From: Prostheceraeus crozeri
Lineage: Eukaryota > Platyhelminthes > Polycladida > Euryleptidae
Length of the DNA stretch: 64,000 nt
Assembly: GCA_907163375.1 (NCBI GenBank)
Contig: CAJQUW010011540.1
Span: forward strand, 89,680 to 153,679
Reading direction: 5' to 3'
A program made the position numbers and the translations under genes. Positions 1 to 55,544 of the stretch are shown here, in pieces; within the stretch, counting starts at the first letter, position 1, and every line of letters starts with the position of its first letter. The notes below the pieces were generated by a model. The model was given only the letters and a program-made list of their open reading frames with translations. It ran no database searches and was not told where the DNA came from.

Positions 1-530
1 TCTCCATATTGGATGACTGCATAAAACTACAATTCCGGTTTTGAATACGACAGCCAACGACCGACCGGTCTTGGATGCCCCATGGGGAGTCCAGTGTCTG
101 TCATAGATGCCAATTTACTTATGCAACACATTGAAAATAAAATATTATCTAATAATTTTTGTGATTTGTTATACTGGCGCAGGTGTGTACTGGTAGACGA
201 TACCTGGATTGTCATTCCAGAGCACAACATAGACAAATTTGTTGATTACATCAATACATGTGCTATTGAGCAATCTATTAACTTTACGGTAGAAAGAGAA
301 GATGACAGCCACTCTCTGTCGTTTCTTGACATTTTCATCACAAGGAATATTGAGGACCATGCTTTTGAGATGTAATTGTTTTATAAGCCGACCCAGACGG
401 ACAGGCATTTACAGTTTTCTACACACAATCATATGTGTCATAAAAGAACAGTTGTTAAGTGTTTTCACAGAAAGATTGGTTCTTTTATCATCTTGTGATA
501 ATGTTAGTGATGCTCAGGGATGTTTGTAAT
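1..530 (+). pseudogene. Penelope-like element reverse transcriptase, C-terminal fragment, frameshifted
   Basis: Fragment of the reverse transcriptase of a Penelope-like retroelement, cut by the window edge. Seen: MGSPVSVIDANLL at about 82-120, the motif that opens the palm core in this family, then a degenerate catalytic box LVDDTW at about 190-207, where the usual tyrosine before VDD is replaced by leucine. INFTVE and LSFLDI follow around 280-330. After a frameshift near 375 the thumb region continues as YKPTQTDRHLQF and HKRTVVK around 385-455. The sequence ahead of MGSPVS needs another frame change near position 38. The order and spacing match Penelope-like RTs. The breaks show it is dead. 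It continues into the GIY-YIG piece downstream on the same strand. Confidence 0.8.
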
Positions 531-1204
531 AAGCTGCTAAAAAATGGGTATCCGTATAATTTTGTCCGCAAAAATGTTTATTTTCGGGAATCTGTTTTTT
601 CGAATCGTTTTGAAAGCGTATAGGTATAGTGTGCTTGCCATATATGTCCAAGATATCTGAGTCTATAGCAAGAATTTTACATCATGATAAAGTCAAGACG
701 TTTTACCAACCGTGTTTGCGAATAAGGAATTTTCTACCGGCCCCTAAAGACCGTGTTGATGACGCTCAGAGATGTGGTGTCGTGTGCCAGATAAATTGCC
801 AGGACTGCAACCGCTCTTATGTAGGCCAATCAGGCAACAGGTTGAATACGCGTGTCGGTCAACATCGCGCCGATTTTCGACTCCTACATCCACAGAAGTC
901 AGGAGTAGCCGAACATTCGCTAAATAGCGATCATCATATCGATTGGAATAATGTCGACGTACTGGAGCACGAGACAAATTATCATAAAAGATTGTTTTTG
1001 AAAGTGTGGCATACAGAACGTGTTTCAGATACTTTGAATCGTTGTGATCGGAGTGTTCCTTCGGTTTACAGTATTATTTGGTTTAATTCCAGCATTATTT
1101 TTCTTCTTGTGATAGTATTGCATTACTGTAGATGTTTTAAAGTGCTTTCTGTAAATATTGTAAATAATGTACGATTCTCTCTTTTATCCGATGTCTGTAT
1201 ATAA
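530..1204 (+). pseudogene. Penelope-like element linker and GIY-YIG endonuclease domain
   Basis: C-terminal endonuclease half of the same Penelope-like element. Around 520-600 another frame carries KLLKNGYPYNFVRKN, the stretch that normally joins RT to endonuclease. From about 630 the frame runs LPYMSKISESIARIL, and then the GIY-YIG core from about 773: VVCQINCQDCNRSYVGQS, NTRVGQH and GVAEH with HHIDW after it. The paired cysteines INCQDC are typical of the Penelope version. The first tyrosine of GIY is replaced by cysteine (VVC), so the nuclease would probably be inactive even if it were translated. In intact elements this domain nicks DNA for target-primed reverse transcription. The domain ends near 1080; the remaining ORF tail is probably not coding. 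Confidence 0.85.
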
Positions 1205-5052: not shown

Positions 5053-5058
5053 GAGATA
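5053..5058. repeat. Left target-site duplication GAGATA
   Basis: Direct repeat of 6 bp touching the left terminus of the 12-kb element and matched at 17080-17085. Confidence 0.75.
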
Positions 5059-5102
5059 AGTAGTAACCCCATTCCAAATTCAAGCGCAGTGCGGTGCAGT
5101 GT

Positions 5103-5135
5103 TGAGTCATCGATGAGTCATCATGCTGACTCAGC
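5103..5135. promoter_or_regulatory. Cluster of three AP-1/Maf-type bZIP motifs in the left terminus
   Basis: TGAGTCA at 5103-5109 and 5114-5120 and TGACTCA at 5127-5133, all within 31 bp. The last lies inside TGCTGACTCAGC (5124-5135), which matches the core of a Maf recognition element. The order is repeated inverted at the other end. Such sites could bind host bZIP factors or be transposase binding sites; both are inference. Confidence 0.45.
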
Positions 5136-5214
5136 CCCCCCTCTGGAAGGAAGTGGGCAAGGATGTGATGGAAGGATGGGTCCGAGAGGCGGAAACTGTT
5201 CCCTCCCCCCCTCG

Positions 5215-6800
5215 GCAGCGATCTTCTAACTTTGGTTGTAGAGATGGTAGAAAGTCGTGCAATAGCTCATTTGAAAGCTAAGAGTGAGAAAAATGCCGTG
5301 GAAAGCTCAGTTTGGAGTCATTTTCTTGGGTTTAGGGAGGAAAATGGCAAGAAACCGTCAGACTTGGAAAAGTCAGGTTTTGGAGGTTTTGGGATGAGAA
5401 AGTCAATTTTTCGACAGGAAGGAGGCCTCGGATGGGAAAACGGAGTGCAAATTCGGACGTTTTGGTCAAAGTTGGATCTAGGAACTTCTTCCCAAATCAA
5501 TAGGAGAGAAAAAGTTTTGACCTCCCCCCCCCCTCCTGCCAAACTTCCAACTTTGGTTGTAGACATCGTAGAAAGTCGTGCAATAGCTCATTTGAAAGCT
5601 AAAAGTGAGAAAAATGCCGTGGAAAGATCAGTATGGACTCATTTTCTTGGGTTTAGAGAGGAAAATGGCAGGAAACCGTCAGACTTGGAAAAGGCAGGTG
5701 TTGGTGGTTTTGGGATGAGAAAGTCCATTTTTCGACATGAAGGAGGCCTCGGATGGGAAAACGGAGGCCAGATTCGGAATTTTTAGTCAATTTTGGGTTA
5801 GGAAGGATGTTTCCAGCGACATTGGAGAGAAAAAGTTTTGAAGACCTCCCTCCCCCCCTACCAAACTTCCAACTTTGGTGTGAGAGATGGTAGAAAGTCA
5901 TGCAATAGCTCTTTGAAAGCTAAGAGTGAGAAAAAGGCAGTGAAAAGCTCAGTTTGGACTCATTTTCTTGGGTTTAGGGAGGAAAATGGCAGGAAACCGT
6001 CAGAGTTGGAAAAGTCAGGTTTTGGAGGTTTTGGGATGAGAAAGTCCATTTTTCGACAGGAAGGAGGCCTCGGATGGGAAAACGGAGTGCAAATTCGGAC
6101 GTTTTGGTCAAAGTTGGGTCTAGGAACTTCTTTCCAACTCAATCGAAGAGAAAAAGTTCTGACCTCCCCCCCCTCGACACCGATCTTCCAACTTTGCTTT
6201 TAGTGGATGGATTTTGTCGTGCAATAGCTCATTTGAAAGCTGGGAGTGAGACAAGTTCACTGAAAGAAACGGCTTGTTCATATCTGCCTTCGTTTAGATG
6301 TGAGACGTCATTCAAGATTTTGGGAGATTGGCGAAAAACGACAGAGTTAGAATTTGGACGTTTTTGGGCTGTAGCTTCAAAACGAAGCATCGGATGGGAA
6401 AACGGATTTCAGATTTGGAGTCAGCATGAAATTCTCTATCAACATGGTGAGTTTCAAGTCAATCGGAGAGAAAAATTTTCGCTGACGTCCCCCCCCTCGG
6501 GAGAGCTAGCTTCGATCTTGGCTTCCAGTGGACGGATTTTGTCGTGCCATAGCTCCTTTGAAAGCTGGGAGTGAGACAAATTCAGTGGAAAACATGGCTT
6601 GTTCATATCTACCCTCGTTTAGAGGTGAGATGTTATTGAAAATTTGGGACCTTGGCGAAAAAACGACTAAGTTAGAATTTTTGCGATAGCTGTTGGCTGT
6701 AGAGCCAAAACGAAGCATCGGATGGGAAAATGGAGGGCAGATTCGGATTCAGCGTCAAATTCTACATGGAAATGGCGTATTTCCAGCTCAATCGGAGCAC
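5215..6800 (+). repeat. Outer tandem array, left arm: five units of about 320 bp
   Basis: The landmark GTCGTGCAATAGCTC (or a close variant) recurs at 5254, 5575, 5897, 6216 and 6541, a spacing of 319-325 bp. Each unit holds a run of eight or more C (CTCCCCCCCC), a segment reading GGATGGGAAAACGGA, and a segment like GGAGAGAAAAAGTTTTGA. The first two units are open in one frame for 184 codons (5232-5786), with VESRAIAHLKAK repeated about 107 residues apart. Later units carry stops, so I treat this as a DNA repeat, not a gene. The C runs could form G-quadruplex or i-motif structures. Confidence 0.8.
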
Positions 6801-8039
6801 TAGAACCGGAGATAGACGGGTTTTTAGTGTTTGGATGATGGGTATTACGTCATCAGCTGATCGCCACACACTATATAAGTGGAAACTCGGCTTGTGGAAA
6901 TCAGTTCTCCTCCCGACTGGGTTGGGGTAGGTGAACTCCGGAGCTCCGATGATAGCATTGGAAATCTGAAAAACCGGGTTTCTGTAAGAAAGCGACTTAG
7001 AAAATTTCATTGCTGAACTCAGCTAAGGCGTCAGACTTAGAGGTTCGCCAGGAGATGGCCTTCGTCTCCAGGCCATAAAAGACTCCAAAACTTTAAAGGC
7101 TTGTAACTTTGCTTCTACAAGTCCGTTTGACTTGATTCAAAAAAGGTTCGGTTGCTATTGACCTGCCCTAAGTGATAGACTACTTATAAAATTTCATAAG
7201 TAGTGTTAAAAAGTTGAAAAATTTAAATTCACTAGTTTTGGAGGTTTTCTGGGGTTTTCGACCCTGCTGAAGTCAATGAAAGGATTTGTCATGATATCTG
7301 AGCGAGTCTTCTCATGGACTAAGCGGCTTTTCACTGAAAGCGAGCAAGACATGGAGAGTTTTGCTGTAATATTCCACTGACAGGGTGTTCCTTCGGGACG
7401 GCGGACGATGCCGTAGTGTTAAGTGTGGCAAGGGAGTGTGTCATAGTTTAGACCAAAACCCCTGGGGGTCGTCTCATGTTGGGCATTTGACACAGTTCTC
7501 AAGGTAGCACTTTGAACGCCAATCGGTTGAGTCTTAGCTATCTTGTCATGGGTGGCCTCTAAACATCTCCATTGCAAAACGCTGGTGAATCAAGCTCGCT
7601 CTCTACGGCTTGCTATCAAGCTGATCAAAGTCTGCTAACCTCTTACCAACTCCACCGGTTTTCATGTCTGGCGATCAAGTCATGGACGGTGCACGATTTT
7701 CGGTGTGATACTTCCTGTGGGTGATTTCGAGACAGCGGTGAAGTCCGTAGCTGCACGGGACGTGGGCAATGGTAATCCTTGTGAAACCTCTCTGCGTCAT
7801 GTCTGCAATGTTTCGTCTCAACGTTGTACTCTGACCGCCAGGGCGACATTTAGCTATCTGCCACAGGTTACCTCATAAAATCTCCATTGCACTTGTCTCC
7901 CGACAGTTGGCCAACCATGAGAGAATGAACCATCAGTTCTTCTTGTCTCTATCACGATGACGAAATGATGAATGGAATGAAGGGAGGACATTCATGCGCC
8001 ACACGCAACACATCACAGAATTCTCTCTTCGCTAGTGAA
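6801..8039. other. Unique part of left arm between the two arrays
   Basis: Mirrored at 14501-15738. It contains small open frames on the minus strand that reappear in the right arm only because the arms are near-identical. None has a recognisable domain. CCGTCCGC-like GC-rich stretches occur around 7390-7470. Confidence 0.5.
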
Positions 8040-8900
8040 CAAGCTCTTGTCAGTGTCGTACAAAAGTTTTACTGCAGCACAGGTTGATGTATAGTTAGAA
8101 AGATTGATCATTGAAGGTTTATTCGTAAGTCTAGTCAGAAACTTTATCATGTTGTACAAAGGTTTTATTGCAACACAGGTTGATGTATAGTTAGAAAGTT
8201 TGATCATGACGTTTATTCGTGAGTGTCATCAGAAAGTGTATCATGGTTTGTAAAAGCAAAGTTTAGTATAGTCAAATATTTTTACTGTAACACAGGTTGA
8301 TGTATAGTTAGAAAGTTTGATCATGACGTTTATTCGTAAGTCTAATCAGAAACTTCATCATGTTGTACAGAGGTTTTACTGCAGCACAGGTTGATGTATA
8401 GTTAGAAAATTTGATCATTGAAGTTGTATTTGTGAGTGTCATCAAAAAGTGTATCATGGTTTGCAAAGTTAGTGTAGTCAAATATTTTTACTGTAACACA
8501 GGCTGATGTATAGTTAGAAAGTTTGATCATGACGTTTATTCGTAAGTCTAGTCAGAAACTTCATCATGTTGTACAAAGGTTTTACTGCAGCACAGGTTGA
8601 TGTATAGTTAGAAAACTTGATCATTGAAGTTGTATTCGTAAGTCTAATCAGAAAGTGTATCATGGTTTGCAAAGTTAGTGTAGTCAAGTAGTTTTACTGT
8701 GACACACGTTTGTAAAAGTAAAGTTTGATCATTGACGTTGTATTCGTAGGTCTAGTCAGAAAGTGTATCATGGTTTGTAAAAGTTTTACTGCAACACAGG
8801 TTGATGTATAGTTAGAAAAGTTTGATCATGACGTTTTATGAAACACAAGTGTCATGAAATGCTAGCGTTAGTGTAGTCAAATAATATTACCGCGACACAC
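8040..8900 (-). repeat. Inner tandem array, left arm: about 100-bp units
   Basis: The word CAGGTTGATGTATAGTTAGA recurs roughly every 90-200 bp, each time followed by TTGATCAT and preceded by TTTTACTGCA or TTTTATTGCA. At least seven imperfect units are visible. The array is mirrored in the right arm at 13640-14500. Confidence 0.8.
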
Positions 8901-9859
8901 GTTTGTGAAAATAATGTTTGATCATTGACGTTGTATGACTGACCGAACTCATCACAGCACTAGAAAGTTTTAGAAGGTTTTACTGCACAATGTAGATTGT
9001 CTTGTAACTTACTTTCACAGTGTTAGAAAGTTTTATTGGAGACAGTTGCCAAATGTTTCCCTATTAGAAAATTCAAACTTCATGACTGTTAGATTAGCTT
9101 CATCAGGTTTACTAAAAGCAGTTTTCTACTGCAATGAGAGTTTAGAATGTTATATGAAAACGGTGTTCGCCACAGCACTAGAAAGTTTTAATCCTTAGTT
9201 GAGATCCGGACTGCAGTGTGTAAAATGTTTTATGTGACAGTCTTTTCACAAACGGTGAAGTGTAAATTCAGAGTGAATACATCTGTTAGGTAGTCATTAA
9301 CTTTGGATGTGAAGTAAAGCGAATCTGTGTACAGAATGAATTGAATATTAGACAACGCATGCAAGTTTTTGATGACTTGAGTGGTTGAACCCAAGTCTAA
9401 GTTTAACATGTTGGATATAAAAGTGAGATGGATAGGAATAAGTGTTGAATGTTTTATAAAACCAGATGTTGTCACACACGTTGAGTATGTATTCCATGAC
9501 ATTGAATCGCGTGGGTCGTAAAGTTCATCATCCAAGGCTAGGCTCCTCTACGGTTGGATTTAGGGTTTTATATGACATGTGTTAACCGTTCGTGTAGAAT
9601 ATGTGAAGCACATGTTCGCTTAAATGCAAATGTTGAAATAAGTTTTGTAAGAAGTCTTTGACAGGTTGTTGTGAAACTTAGCGAACGTTGAAAAAAGTTT
9701 TGTGAAATGTTTCTGCAGTCACACTCATTAGCGTACCAGCTTTACTAAATGTGTTGTTTGCCTTTATCAAATTGAATGTGTGTGTGTTTTGTAAATAAAG
9801 ACAGCGTGTTTGCACTCTGCATCGACAGCATACAAGTATAGACATAGCAACTTGTTGTT
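8901..9859. other. Inner part of left arm with a mirrored 101-codon frame
   Basis: The frame 9230-9535 (minus) is open for 101 codons and its inverse copy at 13005-13310 (plus) gives the same residues. It starts at a TTG, not an ATG, and has no recognised domain. The identity between copies reflects arm identity, not selection. A CCTAAATCC...CTTGGATGATG module at about 9525-9575 resembles modules in the core. Confidence 0.4.
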
Positions 9860-11247
9860 CCAGTAGAAACATTTATTCTGTTACATCCATGAACATGACG
9901 TGATAAAATTCACATCATATTAAAACCTTTTAACAGCGCTTGTCTTTAAACATATGCTGAATCTCACGTAGCTTGTTTGTTACACTACCAATTCATTTCA
10001 ATGCGAGCTAATCTTGCATCACTGATTTCATGCGACATAACTTTTCACTTTACTTATTCCTACAATGCTACTACTATGTGTTCTAAACTTTCTGAGATCG
10101 CTTTCACTTCTATCTCACACTTTCTCCATCATATAACTAAGTGAATAAAGTTGATGATACATTATCTGACTAAACTCATTGAGTCACATCCTACACGAGC
10201 AGATATTGCTAACATGGATCATATAAGACGCTAAGTCTTGTCATAGGGTTGACTATACTATGGAGTTAGTGATTTATCAAATTAACTTGTACTTCTAAAA
10301 CGCTAAATCCCTAAATCTTAACGCAGGGATACCTATCCTAAGGGTTTAGTGATTTAGGAGTTTTGCTGTATAGTTTAGTAAACTTATGTCTCTGTCAGCA
10401 TACGACTTTTAAAATACAACACTGACTGATGATTGATGCTCATATATTCCTAGCTTGGATAACAAGAAACTTTCATGCGTTGACTATTATATATTTTAAC
10501 TCTTTACACACTTATTATTCCAATCACTAAGATACATACAACTCTTCTATTGAACATGTATCAATCACCTTTTAACTCACCACATCAAATGTAAAGTGTA
10601 TAAAATAATGAGCATGTAACTATCTCTCATCAACGATATGAAATCTGTCTTTTTAACCTGAAATTAAGTCTTGCCTTCAAAGTCATTTTATAAAGCGAAC
10701 ATATGCATCACGTATTCTACACTAAAATAGATCGTTCATTTGTGCTATCCAAAGCCCTAAGTCCCTAAATCCAACGGTAGGTAACCCTACCTCTTAGATG
10801 ATGGACTTAAGCAATTTATAGGTCAAGTATAAATAAAGTGACAAGCATTTCAGTGTTTGTAAGTTAGGTAAAGTATAAAATAGTGTCACAAGCATTTCAC
10901 TGTTTGCAACGTTAGAAATATAGTTGATGTTTGTAAAGTTTGAAATCATGTTGGAATCCTTTCAGTGTTTGTAAAGTTAGAGATAATAGGTTCAATAAGT
11001 ACGTTAGAGAGTTGACTGTACTGAGGTCTAAGGATGTGATGGTCACATTAGAATTCAAGTGACTGAATGTCATCCTAATGAAGATAGAAATGTGTTTGTG
11101 GCTGCATGTGGTGCAAGAGTGTCCTCCCATTTCATTCCATTCATTATATATCCTTTCCCTCTGCATTCCATATCCGAAGATATGTGGCGGGCTTGGGACC
11201 GCTTTAGCTGCACTAGAAGGAAGTTCTTATAAGAACTCATGATGCAT
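9860..11247. other. Left part of single-copy core with CCCTAAATC modules
   Basis: No convincing gene. CTAAATCCCTAAATC and its partial inverse TTTAGTGATTTAGG at 10303-10355 can form a hairpin. A related module, CCCTAAATCCAACGGTAGG, lies at about 10770-10790. Short repeats of about 50 bp with AAGCATTTCA.TGTTTG lie at 10835-10985. The stretch near 11120-11150 resembles arm sequence near 14545-14575, so parts of the core and the arms share ancestry. Confidence 0.4.
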
Positions 11248-11718
11248 TCACGAGGAAATGTGGTGAAACAGTGTGCTGTATGTGTGCATGATGATTTTAT
11301 GAACTAAAGAACGCCCATCACTCACTCCATCACTGAAAGAAAACATGAATGAGTTGAGATGATAGTCATTCGTATGCATGTGTAAAACTCTTACTTCATT
11401 ATCCGATATCACAATGACATCTTCACTCGCTTCCACTTCCTCACTTTCTATGTTATCACTTTCCATGTTATCACTTTCGACCGTCTCGCTCTCGCTGGTT
11501 GCCATCTCGGCCTCGCTCCCCACCGTCTCGCTCTCACTCGGAGATTCCTGCAGATCCATCATCGGGGATTCGGGTGGAGGTATGACGTTCGATTCATCGA
11601 ACAAGGAATAGTATTTCATAAAATGAAATACTATATCCTCACTCTCATCGGAGAGAAACGTTTCACCCATATAAGTAATCCTATATGGGGTAACTTGAGC
11701 AGTTGGCTTCTCGGACAT
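11248..11718 (-). CDS. Small acidic Ser/Glu-rich protein in the element core, with SUMO-interacting-like motif
   Basis: Open frame of 156 codons, the only convincing candidate gene of the 12-kb element. I chose the ATG at 11718 (MSEKPTAQV) because it has A at -3; the frame opens slightly upstream without an earlier ATG. The N-terminal 45 residues are mixed (PYRITYMGETFLSDESED). Residues 50-100 are a low-complexity run of SESETV and MESDN/IESDN repeats, strongly acidic. DVIVISDNE follows at about 105-113. A hydrophobic VIVI core flanked by Asp/Glu is the known form of a SUMO-interacting motif. No catalytic domain or membrane segment is seen. It could be a regulatory or transcription-linked factor, but the function is unknown. 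The acidic repeats could also keep a frame open by composition alone, so coding is likely but not proven. Confidence 0.5.
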   Translation of the reverse strand: MSEKPTAQVTPYRITYMGETFLSDESEDIVFHFMKYYSLFDESNVIPPPESPMMDLQESPSESETVGSEAEMATSESETVESDNMESDNIESEEVEASEDVIVISDNEVRVLHMHTNDYHLNSFMFSFSDGVSDGRSLVHKIIMHTYSTLFHHISS

Positions 11719-12680
11719 GATTATGATAGTAAAATGCACGAGACTCTGCTTTATAGGAGAATGATACAGCCTTTCAAATGTCTGGTTCGCGCAATCAAAT
11801 CGCTCTAAGCTTATGTTTGGTGGACGAAAAGGGAAGTCATATTTTCATTGACTGCCATCCTCAACCACTCAACAAACTTAGATGCATTTATCGCGTGAAT
11901 CTCCCTTCCGGTCGGATAGCAATGACCTGTGTGGGAATCAGCTAGGTGGGAGGTCGGAGATGGCGATAAGTTCCTGCATCCTTGCTCGTGGGACAGATGC
12001 GATAGATCTCTGTTTCATGTGACAGACGAGTGCCAGAGAGAGCGCGTACATCTTTGTGTTCTACTCTATCTGCCGAGAGCTAGCGCGACAGACGATCGCC
12101 AACCGGCTGCGCTGTCATTCATCTTTGTGTTCTACTCAATCTGCTGAGGGGCTAGCGAGACAACCAGGCGTCAGAGAGCACTTATGATTCTTTGTGGGCA
12201 CAGGAGGGGTTTTTTCACTGATAGGTTTTATGACAAACATTTTGAATGGTAGCGTGTTGACTATTGCAAGCCATGTTAAATGTCATGTTTTCATCGTCTG
12301 CATTCACTCAGAAAATGCTGTTTCCTACAAATTAGTTTTCTCAACAGACGTATTCATTGTGTGAGTTCAAGGGTCGAGTCGTTGAACTAAGACTTATGCG
12401 TTTCTACAGGTCTTGATATCAGCTTTCAACACGCCTGCAATCTATGAAAGTTTTACCAACATAAAGTTGTTGACATAAAGTTTCTTACACCGCAGTTCAT
12501 GTTTACGACTTTCATTTGAATGTCAGATTTGTATGTTCATCTGTCTATGATGAGTGTAAACGTTGTCACAGTTCTCCTTTATTTCCCGTAAACTAGTTGT
12601 GACACTTTTGTGTTTCACTTCATCTATCAGGTTGATTTTTATCTCACACATAATGTTTCCTATCTCATATGCATTCGACT
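11719..12680. promoter_or_regulatory. Upstream part of core: possible promoter region with a short duplication
   Basis: Sequence 5' of the acidic-protein frame. CATCTTTGTGTTCTACTC occurs at 12048-12065 and again at 12119-12136, each followed by CTGC.GAG..GCTAGCG, a tandem duplication of about 71 bp. CpG-containing words are denser in 11890-12180 than nearby. This would fit a promoter, but no clear TATA box or initiator can be assigned. Confidence 0.25.
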
Positions 12681-13639
12681 AACAACAAGTTGCTATGTCT
12701 ATACTTGTATGCTGTCGATGCAGAATGCAAACACGCTGTTTTTATTTACAAAACACACACACATTCAATTTGATAAAGGCAAACAACACATTTAGTAAAG
12801 CTGGTACGCTAATGATTGTGACTGCAGAAACATTTCACAAAACTTTTTTCAACGTTCACTAAGTTTCACAACAACCTGTCAAAGACTTCTTACAAAACTT
12901 ATTTCAACATTTGCATTTAAGCGAACATGTGCTTCACATATTCTACACGAACGGTTAACACATGTCATATAAAACCCTAAATCCAACCGTAGAGGAGCCT
13001 AGCCTTGGATGATGAACTTTACGACCCACGCGATTCAATGTCATGGAATACATACTCAACGTGTGTGACAACATCTGGTTTTATAAAACATTCAACACTT
13101 ATTCCTATCCATCTCACTTTTATATCCAACATGTTAAACTTAGACTTGGGTTCAACCACTCAAGTCATCAAAAACTTGCATGCGTTGTCTAATATTCAAT
13201 TCATTCTGTACACAGATTCGCTTTACTTCACATCCAAAGTTAATGACTACCTAACAGATGTATTCACTCTGAATTTACACTTCACCGTTTGTGAAAAGAC
13301 TGTCACATAAAAGATTTTACACACTGCAGTCCGGATCTCAACTAAGGATTAAAACTTTCTAGTGCTGTGGCGAACACTGTTTTCATATAACATTCTAAAC
13401 TCTCATTGCAGTAGAAAACTGCTTTTAGTAAACCTGATGAAGCTAATCTAACAGTCATGAAGTTTGAATTTTCTAATAGGAAACATTTGGCAACTGTCTC
13501 CAATAAAACTTTCTAACACTGTGAAAATAAGTTACAAGACAATCTACATTGTGCAGTAAAACCTTCTAAAACTTTCTAGTGCTGTGATGAGTTCGGTCAG
13601 TCATACAACGTCAATGATCAAACATTATTTTCACAAACG
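12681..13639. other. Inner part of right arm with the mirrored 101-codon frame
   Basis: Inverse copy of 8901-9859, containing the 13005-13310 frame. The inner boundary is sharp: AACAACAAG at 12681 is the last shared block, and the core beyond it is unrelated to the left side. Confidence 0.4.
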
Positions 13640-14500
13640 TTTGTCGCGGTAATATTATTTGACTACACTAACGCTAGCATTTCATGACACTTGTGTTTCA
13701 TAAAACGTCATGATCAAACTTTTCTAACTATACATCAACCTGTGTTGCAGTAAAACTTTTACAAACCATGATACACTTTCTGACTAGACCTACGAATACA
13801 ACGTCAATGATCAAACTTTACTTTTACAAACGTGTGTCACAGTAAAACTACTTGACTACACTAACTTTGCAAACCATGATACACTTTCTGATTAGACTTA
13901 CGAATACAACTTCAATGATCAAGTTTTCTAACTATACATCAACCTGTGCTGCAGTAAAACCTTTGTACAACATGATGAAGTTTCTGACTAGACTTACGAA
14001 TAAACGTCATGATCAAACTTTCTAACTATACATCAGCCTGTGTTACAGTAAAAATATTTGACTACACTAACTTTGCAAACCATGATACACTTTTTGATGA
14101 CACTCACAAATACAACTTCAATGATCAAATTTTCTAACTATACATCAACCTGTGCTGCAGTAAAACCTCTGTACAACATGATGAAGTTTCTGATTAGACT
14201 TACGAATAAACGTCATGATCAAACTTTCTAACTATACATCAACCTGTGTTACAGTAAAAATATTTGACTATACTAAACTTTGCTTTTACAAACCATGATA
14301 CACTTTCTGATGACACTCACGAATAAACGTCATGATCAAACTTTCTAACTATACATCAACCTGTGTTGCAATAAAACATTTGTACAACATGATAAAGTTT
14401 CTGACTAGACTTACGAATAAACCTTCAATGATCAATCTTTCTAACTATACATCAACCTGTGCTGCAGTAAAACTTTTGTACGACACTGACAAGAGCTTGT
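13640..14500 (+). repeat. Inner tandem array, right arm: about 100-bp units
   Basis: TCTAACTATACATCAACCTG occurs at about 13725, 13927, 14021, 14134, 14226, 14342 and 14443, alternating with CATGATACACTTTCTGA-type spacers. It is the inverse of the left inner array and differs from it at only occasional bases. Confidence 0.8.
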
Positions 14501-15738
14501 TCACTAGCGAAGAGAGAATTCTGTGATGTGTTGCGTGTGGCGCATGAATGTCCTCCCTTCATTCCATTCATCATTTCGTCATCGTGATAGAGACAAGAAG
14601 AACTGATGGTTCATTCTCTCATGGTTGGCCAACTGTCGGGAGACAAGTGCAATGGAGATTTTATGAGGTAACCTGTGGCAGATAGCTAAATGTCGCCCTG
14701 GCGGTCAGAGTACAACGTTGAGACGAAACATTGCAGACATGACGCAGAGAGGTTTCACAAGGATTACCATTGCCCACGTCCCGTGCAGCTACGGACTTCA
14801 CCGCTGTCTCGAAATCACCCACAGGAAGTATCACACCGAAAATCGTGCACCGTCCATGACTTGATCGCCAGACATGAAAACCGGTGGAGTTGGTAAGAGG
14901 TTGGCAGACTTTGATCAGCTTGATAGCAAGCCGTAGAGAGCGAGCTTGATTCACCAGGGTTTTGCAATGGAGATGTTTAGAGGCCACCCATGACAAGATA
15001 GCTAAGACTCAACCGATTGGCGTTCAAAGTGCTACCTTGAGAACTGTGTCAAATGCCCAACATGAGACGACCTCCAGGGGTTTTGGTCTAAACTATGACA
15101 CACTCCCTTGCCACACTTATCACTACGGCATCGTCCGCCGTCCCGAAGGAACACCCTGTCAGTGGAATATTACAGCAAAACTCTCCATGTCTTGCTTGCT
15201 TTCAGTGAAAAGCCGCTTAGTCCATGAGAAGACTGGCTCAGATATCATGACAAATCCTTTCGTTGACTTCAGCAGGGTCGAAAACCCCAGAAAACCTCCA
15301 AAACTAGTGAATTTAAATTTTTCAACTTTTTAGCACTACTTATGAAATTTTATAAGTAGTCTATCACTTAGGGCAGGTCAATAGCAACCGAACCTTTTTT
15401 GAATCAAGTCAAACGGACTTGTAGAAGCAAAGTTACAAGCCTTTAAAGTTTTGGAGTCTTTTATGGCCTGGAGACGAAGGTCATCTCCTGGCGAACCTCT
15501 AAGTCTGACGCCTTAGCTGAGTTCAGCAATGAAATTTTCTAAGTCGCTTTCTTACAGAAACCCGGTTTTTCAGATTTCCAATGCTATCATCGGAGCTCCG
15601 GAGTTCACCTACCCCAACCCAGTCGGGAGGAGAACTGATTTCCACAAGCCGAGTTTCCACTTATATAGTGTGTGGCGATCAGCTGATGACGTAATACCCA
15701 TCATTCAAACACTAAAACCCGTCTATCTCCGGTTCTAG
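14501..15738. other. Unique part of right arm between the two arrays
   Basis: Inverse copy of 6801-8039. It holds open frames of up to 123 codons (14962-15333, plus; 14661-14996, minus) without recognisable motifs. Single-base differences from the left arm occur, for example near 14960 against 7580. Confidence 0.5.
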
Positions 15739-15749
15739 TGCTCCGATTG

Positions 15750-16960
15750 AGCTGGAAATACGCCATTTCCATGTAGAATTTGACGCTGAATCCGAATCTG
15801 CCCTCCATTTTCCCATCCGATGCTTCGTTTTGGCTCTACAGCCCACAGCCATCGCAAAAATTCTAACTTAGTCGTTTTTTCGCCAAGGTCCCAAATTTTC
15901 AATAACATCTCACCTCTAAACGAAGGTAGATATGAACAAGCCATGTTTTCCACTGAATTTGTCCCACTCCCAGCTTTCAAACGAGCTATGGCACGACAAA
16001 ATCCGTCCACTGGAAGCCAAGATCGAAGCTAGCTCTCCCGAGGGGGGGGGAGGTCTTCAAAACTTTTTCTCTCCGATTGAGTTGGGAAGAAGTTTCTAGA
16101 CCCAACTTTGACCAAAACGTCCGAATTTGCACTCCATTTTCCCATCCGAGCACTCCTTCATGTCGAAAAACGATTTTTCTCATCCCAAAACCTCCAACAC
16201 CTGCCTTTTCCAACTCTGACGGTTTCCTGCCATTTTCCTCCCTAAACCCAGGAAAATGAGTCCAAACTGAGCTTTCCACTGCATTTTTCTCTTTTTTAGC
16301 TTTCAAATGAGCTATTGCACGACTTTCTACGATGTCTACAACCAAAGTTCGGTAGATCGCTGCCGAGGGGGGGAGGTCAGAACTTTTTCTCTTCGATTGA
16401 GTTGGGAAGAAGTTCCTAGACGCAACTTTGACCAAAACGTCCGAATTTGCACTCCGTTTTCCCATCGGAGACCTCCATCTGCCCGAAAAACGACTTTTCT
16501 CATCCCAAAACATCCAAAACCTACCTTTTCCAACTCTGACGGTTTCTTGCCATTTTCCTCCCTAAACCCAGGAAAATGAGTCCAAACTGAGCTTTCCAGG
16601 GCATTTTTCTCACTCTTTGCTTTCAAATGTGCTATTGCACGACTTTGTGCGATGTCTACAACCAAAGTTAGAAGATCGCTGCCGAGGGGGGGGGGAGGTT
16701 AGAACTTTTTCTCTCCAATGTCGCTGGAAACATCCTTCCGAACCCAAAATTTCACGTAGAGTCCGAATCTGCACTCCGTTTTCCCATCCGAGGCCTCCTT
16801 CTGCTCGAAAAACGACTTTTCTCATCCCAACACCACCAACACTCGCCCTTTCCTCACTCACTCCCTCACACGTCACCTTCCTTCCCTTACCCGAACACTC
16901 CTTCCTTCCTTCCAGAGGGGGGGAGGGACCTGTTTCCTCCTCACGGACCCATTCCTCCCA
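15750..16960 (-). repeat. Outer tandem array, right arm: three full units plus a partial one
   Basis: Inverse copy of the left array. GAGCTATTGCACGAC-type landmarks lie at about 15984, 16309 and 16629. A further, partly homologous unit runs to about 16860, then a CT-rich stretch leads to the terminus. The copy number differs from the left arm (five), which explains the 400-bp arm-length difference and points to slippage or unequal exchange after insertion. Confidence 0.75.
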
Positions 16961-17002
16961 ACACATCCTTGGCGAACTCCCTTCCTGCCAGAGGGGGGGG
17001 GG

Positions 17003-17035
17003 GCTGAGTCAGCATGATGACTCATCGATGACTCA
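17003..17035. promoter_or_regulatory. Cluster of three AP-1/Maf-type bZIP motifs in the right terminus
   Basis: Mirror image of the left cluster: TGAGTCA at 17005-17011 within GCTGAGTCAGCA, then TGACTCA at 17018-17024 and 17029-17035. The second and third left motifs have exact right-hand partners. Confidence 0.45.
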
Positions 17036-17079
17036 TCACTGCACCGCACTGCGCTTGAATTTGGAATGGGGTTACTACT

Positions 17080-17085
17080 GAGATA
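17080..17085. repeat. Right target-site duplication GAGATA
   Basis: Partner of the word at 5053-5058. It starts directly after the terminal TTACTACT of the 12-kb element. Confidence 0.75.
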
Positions 17086-33253: not shown

Positions 33254-33784
33254 TGATGCACCCAATTGCAAATACAACATGTAGCATATTTGCTGCAATT
33301 GAGACTTGTAACCACAGAATTTGATTGTTTAATCGTATCACTTTGCTAGAAGTGCAAACTGATTCAAACAGATGGCACATGCAGGAACTTAATAAGTGGG
33401 CAAAAAGAAATTCTTAATACCTTACAGAGATAGGAAAAATAGTCGTGCGTCGCTTGCAGATTTCTCTGAATTCTTTCAAAATGCTCCGATCGCCACGATT
33501 CCTTCAGATTCGAAGAATTCAGATCATTGCGCAAAAGTTTTCTCGATAATGTTGGGTCCTCCGATCATTTTAAAAAAAGTTAGCAGGCGCATGAAAAAAC
33601 GTTCACAAACTTCTCTGCAGAACTTGACATCGTCTGTGTCTCTTTGCTGTGTGATCCGGTTGATAACAGTCACTGAAACTTTGTACAATTTGGCGTGTTT
33701 AATGTTGAACTGGCTGCTCATTGTTCGATTGCTATGGTATTTAGTCAGGAGATTGTGCCATTCCATTAACGCTACATGTCCCAA

Positions 33785-34513
33785 TTAGTCCGGCAGCCAG
33801 AACGAGTTTCTGCAGGGAACGAGGCCGAAAGTGAGACTTTCACAGAATGATGTGCACCCTATGCCTACTACGAATTGGCACGTCTGCCGAGTTCTATTGA
33901 GTTCCTCTTCTTGTCAGACAGGATCAAAGAAAAACACATGTAAATCCAATGGGACGCAGATTGCAGTTTTTGACTAAAATGAAATTTTGTATGTTTTCTC
34001 TGATTAAACGAAAAGTACCAAGTCTAGAGTCATGATTTTTGACATGGAATGTATTCAGGTCATTTCCTATGATGTGCAGATGCTTTTATCATGCATTATA
34101 TCGCCGATGTATGCGAGAATCAGGTTGAATGTGGATAAAGTAGCTCAAAATGTTTGTGTTTGCCGACATTTAGAGGCTCGCCAAATATAAATGTGTTTAG
34201 CTTTAGAGACAGGGGTGCATGAACATGAAAGGAAATGACCTGAATACATTCCATGTCAAAAATCATGACTCTAGACTTGGTACTTTTCGTTTAATCAGAG
34301 AAAACATAGAAAATTTCATTTTAACCAAAAACTGCAATCTGCGTCCCATTGGATTTACATGTGTTTTTCTTTGATCCTGTCTGACAGGAAGAGGAACTCA
34401 CTAGAACTCGACAGACGTGCCGATTCGTAGTAGGCATAGGGTGTACATTATTCTGTGAAAGTCTCACTTTCGGCCTCGTTCCCTGCAGAAACTCGTTCTG
34501 GCTGCCGGACTAA
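33785..34513. mobile_element. Foldback element with 284-bp inverted arms
   Basis: Arms 33785-34068 and 34230-34513 are equal in length and nearly identical. The ends read TTAGTCCGGCAGCCAG and CTGGCTGCCGGACTAA. The 161-bp spacer (34069-34229) is single copy and non-coding. AAT at 33783-33785 and 34513-34515 could be a 3-bp target duplication with TAGTCC ends, or TTA/TAA could belong to the termini; this is not resolved. Confidence 0.8.
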
Positions 34514-37500
34514 ATGCTTCCTTTCTAGTCAAACAGAGGAAGAGACGACCTGTCTATTTCTGTGCTTGTAACAAATCACCTTCTTCTTGTTTAGTCAACA
34601 CAGTTTATTGATTTATTAATTCAAACAAGCTCCGAGCAGATATTTGCATTGTACCGGTATATTGTAGTCAAGATAGTTACACTGTTAGATAACTAAAAGA
34701 GGTGAAGTTAGTAAAACGTGAATTGTCATGAAACTGCTTGACATATAACGCTTCTCGTCAGCTGAACAGCACCATAAATTATGTACACGGCCAAATTATG
34801 AACTCAAATTTCAGTTGCCGGTATTCTTAAAAGCATATGGAAATCCATGCTACTTTCGAGTGGATTGTTTCGAGCGCATCAATTTGCATGTATAGAAAAA
34901 AATTATTTCCGAAATTTCATAAAGAAGTAATTCGATGTCAAAAGGAGTTCTCAATTGCTGTGCTGACAGCATTTGAAATAAAACTTTTTTACAGACACTG
35001 TATAGCTGATATGGTGACCATTTTAATGAAAAATGTATTTGAATATCACATGTCTTCATGTTAAAAATTGCTACTCTCTGATATCTTTTTCTAAAAGATT
35101 TGTATGATTGTCATTTTTTCTGATGCTGTCATGGTTTTCAAACAAACATTCGAGTTTTTCAATTAATTACGAACGTACAACTTAAATTATTAAACGCTTG
35201 TAATGGTCACAGCTATGGTATCAAAAATAGTTATTAGAGTTATTAAACATGTTATTAGAGCTATGTTATTAAACATAGCTCTATCAAGAGGAAATAGCTT
35301 CGGGACTCGTAAGTCAAATTTATCGACAGTGCTGAACACTTTCATTTAAGCCAATATGTTGTGAAGCCAACTCAACTGCATCAATCTATTTATTATTGAT
35401 AAATATTACTTATTAACCTTTTCCAAACCAGGAGCTGGGGCAATTCGTTCCCTGTCGCACTTTTGCTGTGAACCTGTAAGAAACTGAGACACTGAGCTGT
35501 TCAATTTGTGCTTTGTTTTAATTTTAGCGCATTATGAAACTTTTCACCAAAGCTAGGGTCATGAATAAAGCTGATTTTCTATATGAATAGAGCAACATAT
35601 CATAGCTGTTACTGTTACTCTGATGCATTAGCATTAGATAGTTAACAGAATTAGAGACATAAGTTGATGATCATCTACTATGATAATAAATAATTTTAGT
35701 AATTTTTTTATGTGTCCTGGGGTAGGCTGTAAGAAGGCCTATTTTGACATTTATATGATGGCCAATTTCTTACCAAAAACGCAGTCTGTTGGGATTTTTC
35801 ACTTGTCGACCTATAACAAGCGAGATTTTACAAGAAAAGAAATTGATAAAGCAAAAAGGCAGGTAATAACAGTTTTTGATTACTTATGAACATTAATAGG
35901 AAAAGTAATAGAAACACAGTTTTGTTGAGCGTGATACAACATCAGCCGAAAATAGTCTGTTCTGAATCAATCAGACAGCGAAGCAAAAAATTGTGTGTAT
36001 TTTAAATCAATCAGCGCACTGTGAAGGGATTCTTTCAGCTGCCGCATGTTCTTTTATAAAGGTCCTAAGTTTCGGCGAAATGCAGGTTTCATTCATGTCT
36101 CATAATATATCGACTCAACAGCGTCATGCATTCCTAAATAGAGTTTAAAAAAACATTGCTTGTTTTGAGACATGTTGAGAACAACTGATTAAATTAAAAC
36201 ACGACATTGTTAAAAAATTCGAAGAATCGAGGAAACGGAGGAAATCAAATTTAAACAACTGCTCTAGTAGAAAATCGTGTAAATAATTAGGCTACTTGAA
36301 GTCAAAGCGTATAAATTAATAATATTAACATAGAGTTACTTACCCCAGTACAGGGTAGGAAACGTAGTACACATATCGGCTAGCGGACCCACCTTTGATA
36401 GGGACGTGAAAAAATTTAAAAGAACGTGTAATCAATTTTACTTACGAAATTTAAAAAACGTTTACGAAATTTACTTACGAATTACTAAAACGAAATTTAA
36501 AAAAAATTGAGAGATTGCAGCTTCTAGATTGCCAAGAAATGTCGTGCTTAAATTGTTCGTCTGCGGATTTTTTCTAAGATCTGCCCAGATGAACTAACTG
36601 GCACTCTGCAATCTTCCCGCCAGAGATTTAGTGCAGCTAAAAAAATAAGATAACATCATGAATATTTCAAGGGTCGAAATTTCAGTTTTGTGGAATTCTG
36701 TCTGTGTAACCAAAAGTTGTTGTTCCAATTAATTGATTTTGACAAACCAGTTTACATCTGTCTCTCTTAGAAATATTTTATTTCAAACTTCCCTGATGCA
36801 AATTTCTGCTTGTAATCAAGATAGTGAAAATGTAGCATAATGTTTCCGATATTCAGAAATGAGAGAGCATCAACAAAAAGGAAGTGAAATGGCTAATTTT
36901 GATACAAGATAAAACGAATCAAACGCAGCAATCGTAAAATCATTATTTGTTTCAGCTTCTTCTTTACAGCACTTATGATTGGCATGTTTGAATAATTCTA
37001 CCAACCCAGAAACTATTTTTCGTCAGAGCTTTTTTTTGATGTATTGAAGCTTTAAACTGTTGAACTTTTAATTTCAAGAGTATTAAGAATATCTGAAATA
37101 AAGCATTCTGATATCGCTTTCTTGAAACGCAGTCCGTGGGCAGCATCGAAGAAAAGTCTTAATATCAAATACATAGATAAACTTAGTAGAACAGTCAAAA
37201 TTTACCGAAAATGGCAAAAGTGCATGAAAGAGTACATCTGGAAAAGGATGTCTATGTATGTGATATTACTTTCTGTTCCTCACTTTTGTACATCTCTCTT
37301 TCCATCATTGAATTAGAATTTGGATCATTCATATATCCACACACTCTGTTTTAAACAGCGCACATTTTTCGAGGGAGATATCAGCGCTAATTCTCGAAGA
37401 CCGCAGGCTTGAGGGATTTAACTTGATATTTCTCGAGAATGGGCATGGACCTTTTATCTTGAATGGGTATGCATCTATTGGTACATACTTTAAAGGGAAT

Positions 37501-38126: not shown

Positions 38127-39017
38127 TTAAGCTTTTTTATGGTAATCCGCAAAACAAAATTTGCACAATCCGACATCGCATTTTTTGCACTCCGACCGCA
38201 CCACAGACTTGCAAAATTCCCCGGCACACCTCCGACGCTTGTTGTTTGGTGGGACACCAAGAAGATGGCTGACACCGTCGAAGCGAACTGAGCCTGAAAT
38301 AGGAACACAGAAAGGTTGAAATGTGTGAAATTTTAGCAATGAAGATGGATTCTTACCAGCGGTTGAAAGATTTTCTTTATTAGAACGTCTTCCAGGACCT
38401 CTTGGCTCTGTTCCGTGCTCTTCTTGGTACGAAACAGCAATAGCGCGGCGAAATTGAAATAATGTCATTGATCTACCACTCGCTTTATGAAGCAACCAAC
38501 CGTTCTGAACTGCTACGTCCAATAGCCAAGTAACAATAGGGAAGTACCACTTATTTCCTCTTATGTTTGTTCGATAGTTACCGACGTTATTGTCGAGTCA
38601 GACTCGACAAGTCAGATAGACTCTGTCTGTTCCACCCATGTTTGCGTTGTACATTTTGATGACGTTGGGAACTGGAACCGAGACATATTGTTTTGATTCA
38701 CGTGAAAAACGTTGGCATGTTTGGAGAGGATTGCAAGGGTAGCAGTTCGATCCAATGATGACAGGCTTGTTGTCCTTCCAAATTGTTATTCCGATGTTGT
38801 TATTAGTTGCCGAGCACCAGTCAGCGTCTCCTCGATCAGCCTTCTGAAAACTTTTTCTGTCTGGCAAAGACACCGTTTTTGAGATTCTGTTCGGCCGCAT
38901 TGTCCCTGTGCCTCCAAGATTACGTCGCTCGAGTTCTAACAGAAGTTGGACAGAACAGAAAAGATTGTCAAAAAAGAATGAAAATGGTAGTTTTTGCAAT
39001 TGATCTATAAATTTCAA
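38127..39017 (-). pseudogene. piggyBac transposase, C-terminal half
   Basis: piggyBac transposases cut at TTAA with three catalytic Asp. Here the minus strand carries FFFDNLF (second Asp), GGTGTMRPNRISK, RGDADW, IWKDNKPV and MYNANMGGTDRV (third Asp). A TGA stop falls just after, about 38604, next to a short inserted sequence. The frame then goes on NYRTNIRGNKWYFPIVTWLLDVA, quoted in parts: RGNKWYFPIVTWLLDV, FQFRRAIAVSY. It ends in a Cys-rich module, RRCAGEFC, CKKCDVGLCKFCF. The N-terminal half with the first Asp is absent. It is one of two unrelated piggyBac copies in the window. Confidence 0.85.
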
Positions 39018-39045
39018 TAACTTTTAAAAAGCTGCATCGTATCGG

Positions 39046-54544: not shown

Positions 54545-55544
54545 ATGTTGAATCTTTTTTCCATGAAATGCGATCTTCTGGTGCATGCTGAAGATATTCC
54601 TCCATCTAACATGTTTAACTTTGACGAGACTGCGCTTTCTGATGACCCAGTGCTCGCAACGTTGCTGTTCCTCAAGGAACAAGGTGAGTTGAAGTGGTCA
54701 AGGAGCATAGCAATATAGATATCTCTATCATGGTTTGTGGTTTAGCAAATGGTGAGTTATTGCCTCCTTATGTGGTGTACAAAGCACAAAATTTGTACGA
54801 CGGATTGACTCTTGGTGGCCCAGCTGGAACTCACTATAGCGTGTCTAAATCTGTATGGTTTGGGATGGAAATCTTCGAGAAATGGTTTCGTGACATCTTC
54901 CTCGAAGTTGTTAGTTCTAGACCTGGAAGAAAAATCCTAATCGGTGACAATCTTGCGTCGCACTTTTCTGTGAATGTTATCCAGCTTGTTAAGGAAAATG
55001 ACGTTCTTTTTGTGGCCCTTTCACCGAACACAACCCATTTAATGCAACCACTGGATGTTTCCATTTCCCGACCATTCAAGAGAATTTGGACGCGCATCCT
55101 GGGCAACTTCAGGAAGGAGTCACGGGCAAAGGGTGCTGCCCCAAAGGTGAGCTTTCCTGTCTTACTACATCAGCTATGTACAGTATATCAAGAAGTGAAG
55201 ATAAAGCATCGCTGTCAACCTTCAGTCTGGGTTCGAAGCTACTCGATTCTATCCTATTAATCCACAAGAGCCATTGAAGCATCTTCAACCGCTGATGCGA
55301 CTCGCTCTGAATCCTCAACAAAGATTGGGTGTTGTGTGGATGCTTCTCTTCGCGTTGCTTCGCGATCACCGCGGGATTTATAAGAAGAAGACAAAGCGAG
55401 GAAGAAAAATCATTCCGGGTCGCCCGGTTGTACCGGAAACCCTTTGGAGCAACCGGGGGTCCAGAAGCCAGTCCCAATGCTTCAAATTCTGACGATGATG
55501 CCCCTTCAACTTCCAATCCCTCCGGAACTTATAGATCTTTTTGA
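54545..55544 (+). pseudogene. pogo/Tigger-like transposase (DDE_1), N-terminally truncated
   Basis: Tc1/mariner-superfamily transposase core. NMFNFDETALSDDP at about 54605-54646 carries the first catalytic Asp. After a deletion and frame change, ISIMVCGLANGELLPPYVVYK, quoted in parts (ISIMVCGLANGE, LPPYVVYKAQNLYDG), begins near 54715. KILIGDNLASHFSVNVI has the second Asp and LSPNTTHLMQPLDVSI the third. A frame change near 55195 leads to NLQSGFEATRFYPINPQEP and then the basic tail KKKTKRGRKIIPGRPVV. The CENP-B-type helix-turn-helix N-terminus is absent. All three acidic residues survive but the frame is broken at least twice. Element ends are not identified; CAGGGGGTAACTTTGAAC at about 54250 is only a candidate left end. 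Confidence 0.8.

Follow-up and report, generated by a model that had tools for sequence, protein, structure and literature searches.

The window analyzed here is a 64,000-nucleotide stretch of a contig of the flatworm Prostheceraeus crozeri. It contains an element with long inverted arms at positions 5059-17079, flanked on both sides by GAGATA. An earlier note, made from the sequence alone, had described a palindromic element with exact inverted termini, its own 6-bp target duplication and a sharply bounded core, and had suggested that it might represent an undescribed class. The features are as follows (strand in parentheses where it applies):

5053..5058: left target-site duplication GAGATA, a flush 6-bp direct repeat
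5059..9859 (+): left arm, which starts with the Maverick-type tip (AGT)2 (motif: PMC8097293, excerpt)
5223..6797 (+): outer left arm, made of ~320-bp units in tandem that diverge inwards; the PolB-bearing copies have it too
6455..9859 (+): inner left arm, which shares 99.03% identity with 16084-12681 and is the sister of the right arm in the tree
8052..8829 (+): 206-bp tandem array, 3.7 units, left arm
9859..9860: junction where the centre was deleted from one side, with ~5.7 kb absent relative to copy C934, including the loop
9860..12680: the so-called core, read here as the right arm continuing towards the lost centre
11153..11219 (-): RNA resembling a twister-P1 ribozyme, located 28 nt downstream from the stop of the 156-aa ORF
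11248..11718 (-): acidic 156-aa ORF that belongs to no known family
11750..11755 (-): TATA box (TATAAA), ~30 bp upstream of the ATG of the 156-aa ORF
12681..16084 (-): inner right arm, which pairs with the inner left arm
12681..17079 (-): right arm, which terminates in (ACT)2
13710..14487 (-): 206-bp tandem array, 3.7 units, right arm
16038..16853 (-): outer right arm, 2.5 copies of a ~320-bp tandem unit
17080..17085: right target-site duplication GAGATA, flush with the right tip

Ends and Arms of the Element

The inverted tips are exact, with AGTAGTAACCCC at 5059-5070 on the plus strand and at 17068-17079 on the minus strand. When up to one mismatch is allowed, this sequence has two matches in the window as compared to the 0.06 expected. 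The two GAGATA hexamers lie flush with the tips, and the chance of a given flush 6-bp match is 1/4096. The termini and the repeats at both edges are as the earlier note had them, and its limits for the two arms and for the core hold as well.

The earlier description of arms with only occasional mismatches is accurate for the inner arms, where the alignment of 6455-9859 with 16084-12681 has 3406 columns, 30 mismatches and three gap openings. However, it does not apply to the outer 1.0-1.4 kb of the arms, which consist of the ~320-bp tandem arrays and are just 83-91% alike.

Relatives in the Host Genome

The host genome contains relatives of this element. A search with its first 300 bp, in which 40 of 5095 candidates were scored, gave at least 51 matches. 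Thirty-five of the 51, including the window's own copy, start at query base 1-7, that is, at the element edge; with these first 300 bp, the expectation in the earlier note that homology ends at the tip is borne out in part. Five other matches start at 60-62, and all three of those that were fetched keep the AGTAGTAA tip; the remaining 11 start at 148-171, within the tandem repeat.

Seven copies were read from end to end. Five of them are palindromes (C934, C12710, C11181, C11434 and the window copy), and two, C4480 and C2832, are non-palindromic and contain a DNA polymerase B (PolB) gene. A perfect 6-bp duplication is present in six of the nine same-contig end pairs that were read (the window and five more copies). 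The other three are imperfect, with five of six bases in C934, four of six in C1088 and none in C4436. There are point changes in the right tip of C11181 and the left tip of C4436. The flush GAGATA repeats and the relatives in the genome, among them palindromes with other flanks, support the earlier view of a mobile element with its own target duplication.

Long palindromes are a known product of mis-assembly, and one could suspect such an artefact here. However, the 30 mismatches between the arms, the duplication that is flush with the tips and the occurrence of other palindromes at several loci with different flanks argue against a fold-over of the assembly, which we regard as exceedingly improbable.

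ORF, TATA Box and Twister-Like RNA

The 156-aa ORF is open in C5600 as well as in the two C934 arms, and both C12710 arms have the same two in-frame stops in this region. The twister-like RNA in the window is a full-length match to Rfam family RF03160 with a score of 31.9 bits (E 0.0012), which is below the gathering score of 67.2; the module in related copies scores 29.6-41.3 bits, all below the same threshold. In the alignment of copies, eight compared relatives have UAA in this RNA and the window copy departs from them. A scan of the PolB-bearing copies with Rfam detected no ribozyme. Matches to microRNA families in one related stretch were rejected; they were below the cut-offs and in simple-repeat-like sequence.

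According to the earlier note, the element contains no gene from a known superfamily, and the Pfam scan agrees: none of 34 element ORFs (some overlapping) has a match above the curated cut-off. Protein database searches found one relative of the core ORF (89%, on an 844-bp ENA contig), one of an arm ORF (on a 917-bp contig) and three of an ORF of C4480, and none of these has a name or a Pfam domain. Viral contigs queried with the 26-bp tip and the core ORF had no relatives, the NCBIfam scan had only TBP models of note and a PDB sequence search with two ORFs gave nothing convincing.

An Apparent Palindromic Lineage

C934 and C12710 have the same 141-bp loop at the same place. In C11181, C11434 and the window copy, the loop is gone through one-sided deletions, and one arm of C11181 extends to 5 bp from the loop edge and one arm of C11434 to 125 bp. 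These observations would imply that the palindromic form was inherited. We also considered a single arm/spacer junction common to the five palindromes, but rejected it because this junction is C11434's own centre deletion; the common palindrome is suggested by the shared loop and by the arms that reach the loop position.

Both C934 arms contain the sequence of the window's core, as do both C12710 arms except for a gap. From these alignments, the 2821-bp core of the earlier note, although its limits hold, is no true core; it is the inner right arm, a remnant of a longer palindrome.

In the trees, all 11 of the 11 within-copy arm pairs are sisters. The arms of one copy are 0.12-1.65% apart, as compared to 3.2-5.4% for the nearest other copy, which indicates copying between the two arms of an element. 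Over the first 42 bp, comparisons within a copy are closer than those between copies in five of seven cases, with a tie in C11181 and the reverse in C934. Sister arms could also be explained, with no need for conversion or hairpin copying, if there were no palindromic lineage and every palindrome had formed independently when a PolB-bearing element folded back. The loop that C934 and C12710 share in the same position, together with the single arms that nearly reach it in two other copies, makes this explanation improbable. The palindromic form seems instead to be a heritable chromosomal lineage, in which the arms evolve in concert and the centre has repeatedly been lost from one side.

PolB-Bearing Relatives and Class Assignment

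The PolB-bearing relatives are 18-20 kb, the PolB frames of C4480 and C2832 are interrupted and the ends of both copies are the same as those of the window element. The C2832 PolB matches PF03175 (E 1.1e-4) with 21.6 bits, below the Pfam cut-off of 25.8, and phrog_1907 with E values of 8.8e-4 and 3.1e-3. A DTDS motif is present in the PolB of both copies. Over its first 3.73 kb from the tip, the right arm of the window element has a piecewise match to only one end of each (the left of C4480 and the right of C2832), and the opposite ends match over 1.1-1.3 kb. Arm sequence past 3.73 kb is absent from the PolB-bearing copies read, short repeats excepted. The 25 ORFs scanned from the two copies had no match to an integrase (some short ORFs lay outside the scan) and no Pfam match to a capsid, packaging ATPase or protease.

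Vertebrate Mavericks/Polintons are defined by (AGT)2//(ACT)2 or (AG)3//(CT)3 tips plus a 6-bp duplication, and intact ones span 12.7-24.6 kb (PMC8097293, excerpt). The window element has the tips AGTAGT...ACTACT, i.e., (AGT)2//(ACT)2, and a duplication of the same length, and the PolB-bearing copies share its ends. Therefore, as far as its mode of insertion is concerned, the undescribed class suggested in the earlier note is not supported. What stands of that suggestion is the palindromic lineage; neither a palindromic Maverick nor a palindromic lineage with mutually copied arms appears among the listed titles and abstract openings of open-licence PMC papers. The family also differs from Mavericks/Polintons in that the window copy has no Maverick gene, no integrase or capsid gene was recognized in the relatives and the arms are 4-9 kb, whereas the inverted repeats of vertebrate Mavericks measure 46-1,447 bp.

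Foldback elements of cut-and-paste superfamilies, such as Galileo in the P superfamily or the Mutator foldbacks, should also be considered. The Mutator target duplication is 8-11 bp. Galileo has long, internally repetitive inverted repeats, like the arms of the window element, but a 7-bp duplication (PMC3573991, excerpt). Instead of longer duplications and transposase relatives, the window family has 6-bp duplications, AGTAGT tips and DNA polymerase-bearing relatives with the same ends, and the 34 ORFs mentioned above had no transposase match. A cut-and-paste origin seems quite unlikely.

A Possible Mode of Replication

We think it probable that the element is a self-complementary, palindromic, non-autonomous satellite of a Maverick/Polinton-type element and that its replication occurs in trans, via a hairpin. 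The observations that bear on this proposal are the ends, the duplications, the relatives, the shared loop, the sister arms and the PolB genes in relatives with the same ends. An ancestral copy-back at one end of a Maverick-type element would have created a near-perfect palindrome with arms of ~7-9 kb and the 141-bp loop. Because such a palindrome would keep two like replication and integration ends, a polymerase and an integrase supplied in trans could replicate and insert it. The polymerase would conduct protein-primed, strand-displacement replication, as the type of PolB and the repeat at the tips suggest, and the integrase would produce the 6-bp duplications on insertion. The displaced strand would fold into one long hairpin, and copying through the loop would rebuild both arms from one and so keep them alike. 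After insertion, the loop and the left inner arm would then have been lost from the window copy. As no integrase was matched among the 25 ORFs scanned from C4480 and C2832 and their PolB frames are interrupted, the supplier in trans remains putative.

Several findings do not fit easily with a hairpin-replicated satellite. The difference between the outer (83-91%) and inner (99%) arms of the window copy should not exist if full hairpin copying occurred at the last insertion. The imperfect duplications in three of nine end pairs (C934, C1088 and C4436), the 42-bp tips of C11181 and C934, the PF03175 score below its cut-off and the arm sequence beyond 3.73 kb that, short repeats apart, the PolB-bearing copies lack also count against it.

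The arms of Y-chromosome palindromes are kept alike by gene conversion. It is possible, if doubtful, that the same Maverick-ended palindrome had its arms kept alike in this way on the chromosome after insertion, rather than by hairpin replication. This would agree with the patchy homogeneity of the arms, in which the divergence ranges between 0.12% and 1.65% depending on segment and copy, and which stops short of the window's outer arms. However, it would require conversion at every one of five separate loci, and the tips also match best within a copy in five of the seven complete copies, as expected if they are set during replication.

If the hairpin-satellite proposal is correct, one can speculate further, and only tentatively, that these elements form a stable class of linear self-complementary palindromes that parasitize Maverick-type protein-primed replication. 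Both arms would be renewed from one strand via the hairpin in each cycle, and each arm may carry one small gene and a self-cleaving twister RNA that sets the 3' end of the gene transcript.

Conclusions

In viruses, defective genomes with a head-to-head structure are known, and the symmetric left-end adenovirus defectives are defective genomes of this snapback type. In the AAV 5' snapback genomes, one genome end is duplicated head to head to give a self-complementary strand (PMC8235507, excerpt). The window palindrome likewise has one end duplicated head to head and is self-complementary, but its family is inserted in the chromosomes in several copies and is apparently an inherited palindromic lineage. 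Here, a head-to-head defective form seems to have been turned into a heritable chromosomal lineage. In these palindromes, fold-back of the strand during Maverick-type replication would have left a natural record; to our knowledge, such fold-back has so far been inferred and not observed, and the arm identity of young insertions would make it testable.

Structure of the element

The palindromic element in the window lies between two copies of GAGATA, and the 6-bp target duplication of its own that the earlier note had claimed is thus present. Both tips read inward as AGTAGTAACCCC, and the arms consist of an outer and an inner zone. The "occasional mismatches" that the earlier note gave for the arms where it had compared them hold for the inner zone, not for the outer one.

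Features of the window copy
5059-17079, palindromic element, 12,021 bp
Outer 1.0-1.4 kb of the arms, outer zone, ~320-bp tandem units, 83-91% alike left versus right
6455-9859 versus 16084-12681, inner zone, 3.4 kb, 99.03% identity (30 mismatches)
9860-12680, stretch between the arms (the "core")
11718-11248 (-), 156-aa acidic ORF with a TATA box ~30 bp upstream

The window has other repeats. A separate short inverted-repeat element (33782-34516) has 294-bp arms of 95.9% identity spaced about 140 bp apart. Transposase fragments at 38601-39023(-), 54688-55257(+), 56486-57703(+) and 60850-61305(-) represent DDE_Tnp_1_7 (piggyBac-type), DDE_1 and the hAT dimerisation domain, a set that points to an animal host. 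The ORFs at 25-1201(+), which are without a Pfam match, presumably resemble a Penelope-like reverse transcriptase with a GIY-YIG end.

Ends and relatives

The search criteria in a vertebrate Maverick survey were the end motifs (AG)3//(CT)3 and (AGT)2//(ACT)2, credited to Kapitonov and Jurka 2006, plus perfect 6-bp duplications (PMC8097293). The window copy has the same (AGT)2//(ACT)2 motif and a 6-bp duplication. In the host assembly (2.05 Gb, 14,165 contigs), the terminal 300 bp has at least 51 matches (40 of 5095 candidates scored), which is a lower bound on copy number. Among the 51 listed, the match starts at base 1-7 of the query in 35 (own copy included), at 60-62 in five and at 148-171 in 11. 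Among nine pairs of ends that share a contig and were read on both sides, six, including the window copy, have perfect duplications; other copies with different 6-bp flanks therefore exist, as the earlier note had asked. Of C8328, C5600, C4337, C8670 and C4436, the analysis covered a portion each.

Copies of the element in the host genome (C-numbers), with form, length and duplication
Window copy, palindrome, 12,021 bp, GAGATA
C12710, palindrome, 17.7 kb, CCTGCA
C11434, palindrome, 14.0 kb, AATACA
C11181, palindrome, 13.3 kb, TACGAC
C934, palindrome, 16.2 kb, GTTGAC/GCTGAC (imperfect)
C4480, gene-bearing, 20.3 kb, AAAGAA
C2832, gene-bearing, 18.3 kb, TCCACA
C1088, ends 43 kb apart, perhaps of different elements, TCTTTT/TGTTTA (imperfect)
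C4436, no perfect duplication, left tip mutated

Copies bearing a DNA polymerase

C4480 and C2832 have inverted repeats of only ~1.6-2.3 kb and carry genes. They are 93-95% alike over long inner stretches and differ by 10% in one arm segment. Their longest gene, broken into pieces, encodes zinc fingers of the C2H2 type, a stretch resembling endonuclease VII (PF02945, 6.8e-5, slightly below the cut-off; phrog_423, 8.9e-7) and PolB (PF03175, E 1.1e-4, 21.6 bits, under the cut-off of 25.8; phrog_1907 DNA polymerase, E 8.8e-4 and 3.1e-3) with a DTDS motif. At L009:5661-8183(+), a host stretch with its own coordinates, the fingers and the endonuclease VII-like stretch share a single frame that continues into the PolB region. 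C4480 also has a TBP-like ORF (L010:4415-4954(-); PF00352, 78.6 bits), whose C2832 counterpart (L022:6937-7476(+)) is recognized by DNA similarity only, at 95% identity; to our knowledge, this is an unusual cargo for Maverick-ended elements. A scan of 25 ORFs from C4480 and C2832 gave no integrase, capsid or ATPase match, so these copies are at most candidates for an autonomous form.

A Tc5/pogo-like transposase ORF (L010:2109-3500(+); DDE_1, 105 bits) is nested within C4480. C2832 has two paralogous ORFs of no known family (L022:3280-4074(+) and L022:5861-6493(+); 24% identity, E 3e-14), and for the first of these, the counterpart in C4480 is 38-95% identical to three relatives in ENA. Next to palindrome C11181 lies another, diverged PolB region (L017:6098-9042(-)), pieces of which share 24-42% identity with pieces of the C4480 PolB frames; this palindrome may have inserted beside or inside another Maverick-like element.

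The palindromes and their centre

Over the first 3.73 kb from its tip, the right arm of the window copy matches piecewise a single end of each PolB-bearing copy, the left one in C4480 and the right one in C2832; the opposite ends of these copies match it over 1.1-1.3 kb only. Beyond 3.73 kb, the palindrome sequence is of at least two kinds and, short repeats apart, is not present in C4480 or C2832. ORFs of at least 150 codons in C12710, C11434 and C11181 lie solely within the outer tandem arrays.

In C934, the inner arms, 99.2-99.4% identical, enclose a loop of 141 bp. The same loop, at 87-88% identity, occurs in C12710, where both arms reach its edge, and is missing from the other three palindromes. 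Relative to the C934 loop edge, the arms stop at 5 and 631 bp in C11181 and at 125 and 1,093 bp in C11434, and the sides of the window copy are joined at ~1.4 and 4.2 kb. Three of the five palindromes have therefore lost their centre through one-sided deletions of about 0.8, 1.4 and 5.7 kb. It follows that the "core", which the earlier note described as sharply bounded, is the surviving inner right arm of the window copy; its sequence occurs in both arms of C934.

The 156-aa ORF, which has an ENA protein relative of 89% identity, is also open in C5600 and both C934 arms. A twister-P1 match that is full-length but scores under the threshold (31.9 bits, E 0.0012) lies 28 nt past its stop. The same module (29.6-41.3 bits) occurs in both arms of C12710 and C934 and once each in C11181, C8328 and C5600; eight other modules share a UAA from which the window module departs. 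A distinct second match lies in or near C5600 (L019:4621-4688(-), 59 bits, E 1e-10). At E up to 0.5, C11434, C4480 and C2832 gave no match, and neither did the stretches covered of C4337, C8670 and C4436. According to one review (PMC7761336), RTE retrotransposons can carry truncated twisters at their 5' end, which makes capture of the module a possibility.

Concerted evolution of the arms

Four arm segments were compared (A-D; C and D share 0.2 kb). Arms differ by 0.12-1.65% within an element and by 3.2-5.4% from the nearest other element. Maximum-likelihood trees place the two arms of an element as sisters in each of the 11 pairs, which come from five elements (A 4/4, B 3/3, C 2/2, D 2/2), with 100% bootstrap in nine and 92% in two, both of segment B. 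The C12710 ORF has the identical two in-frame stops in both arms. The first 42 bp of the tips agree in part, being closer within than between copies in five of seven, with a tie in C11181 and the reverse in C934. The shared loop implies that the palindromic form predates the separate copies, and therefore the arms must be copied from each other, either during replication or later. The later timing, arm conversion after insertion, we consider possible but less likely. The outer arms of the window copy are not homogenised, which is evidence against complete copying in the last cycle.

For copying during replication, a self-complementary element would carry two like protein-primed origins; one displaced strand could then fold into a hairpin, and copying through the hairpin would rebuild the element. 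Such hairpin copying would account for the sister arms, the conserved loop and a lasting palindromic lineage.
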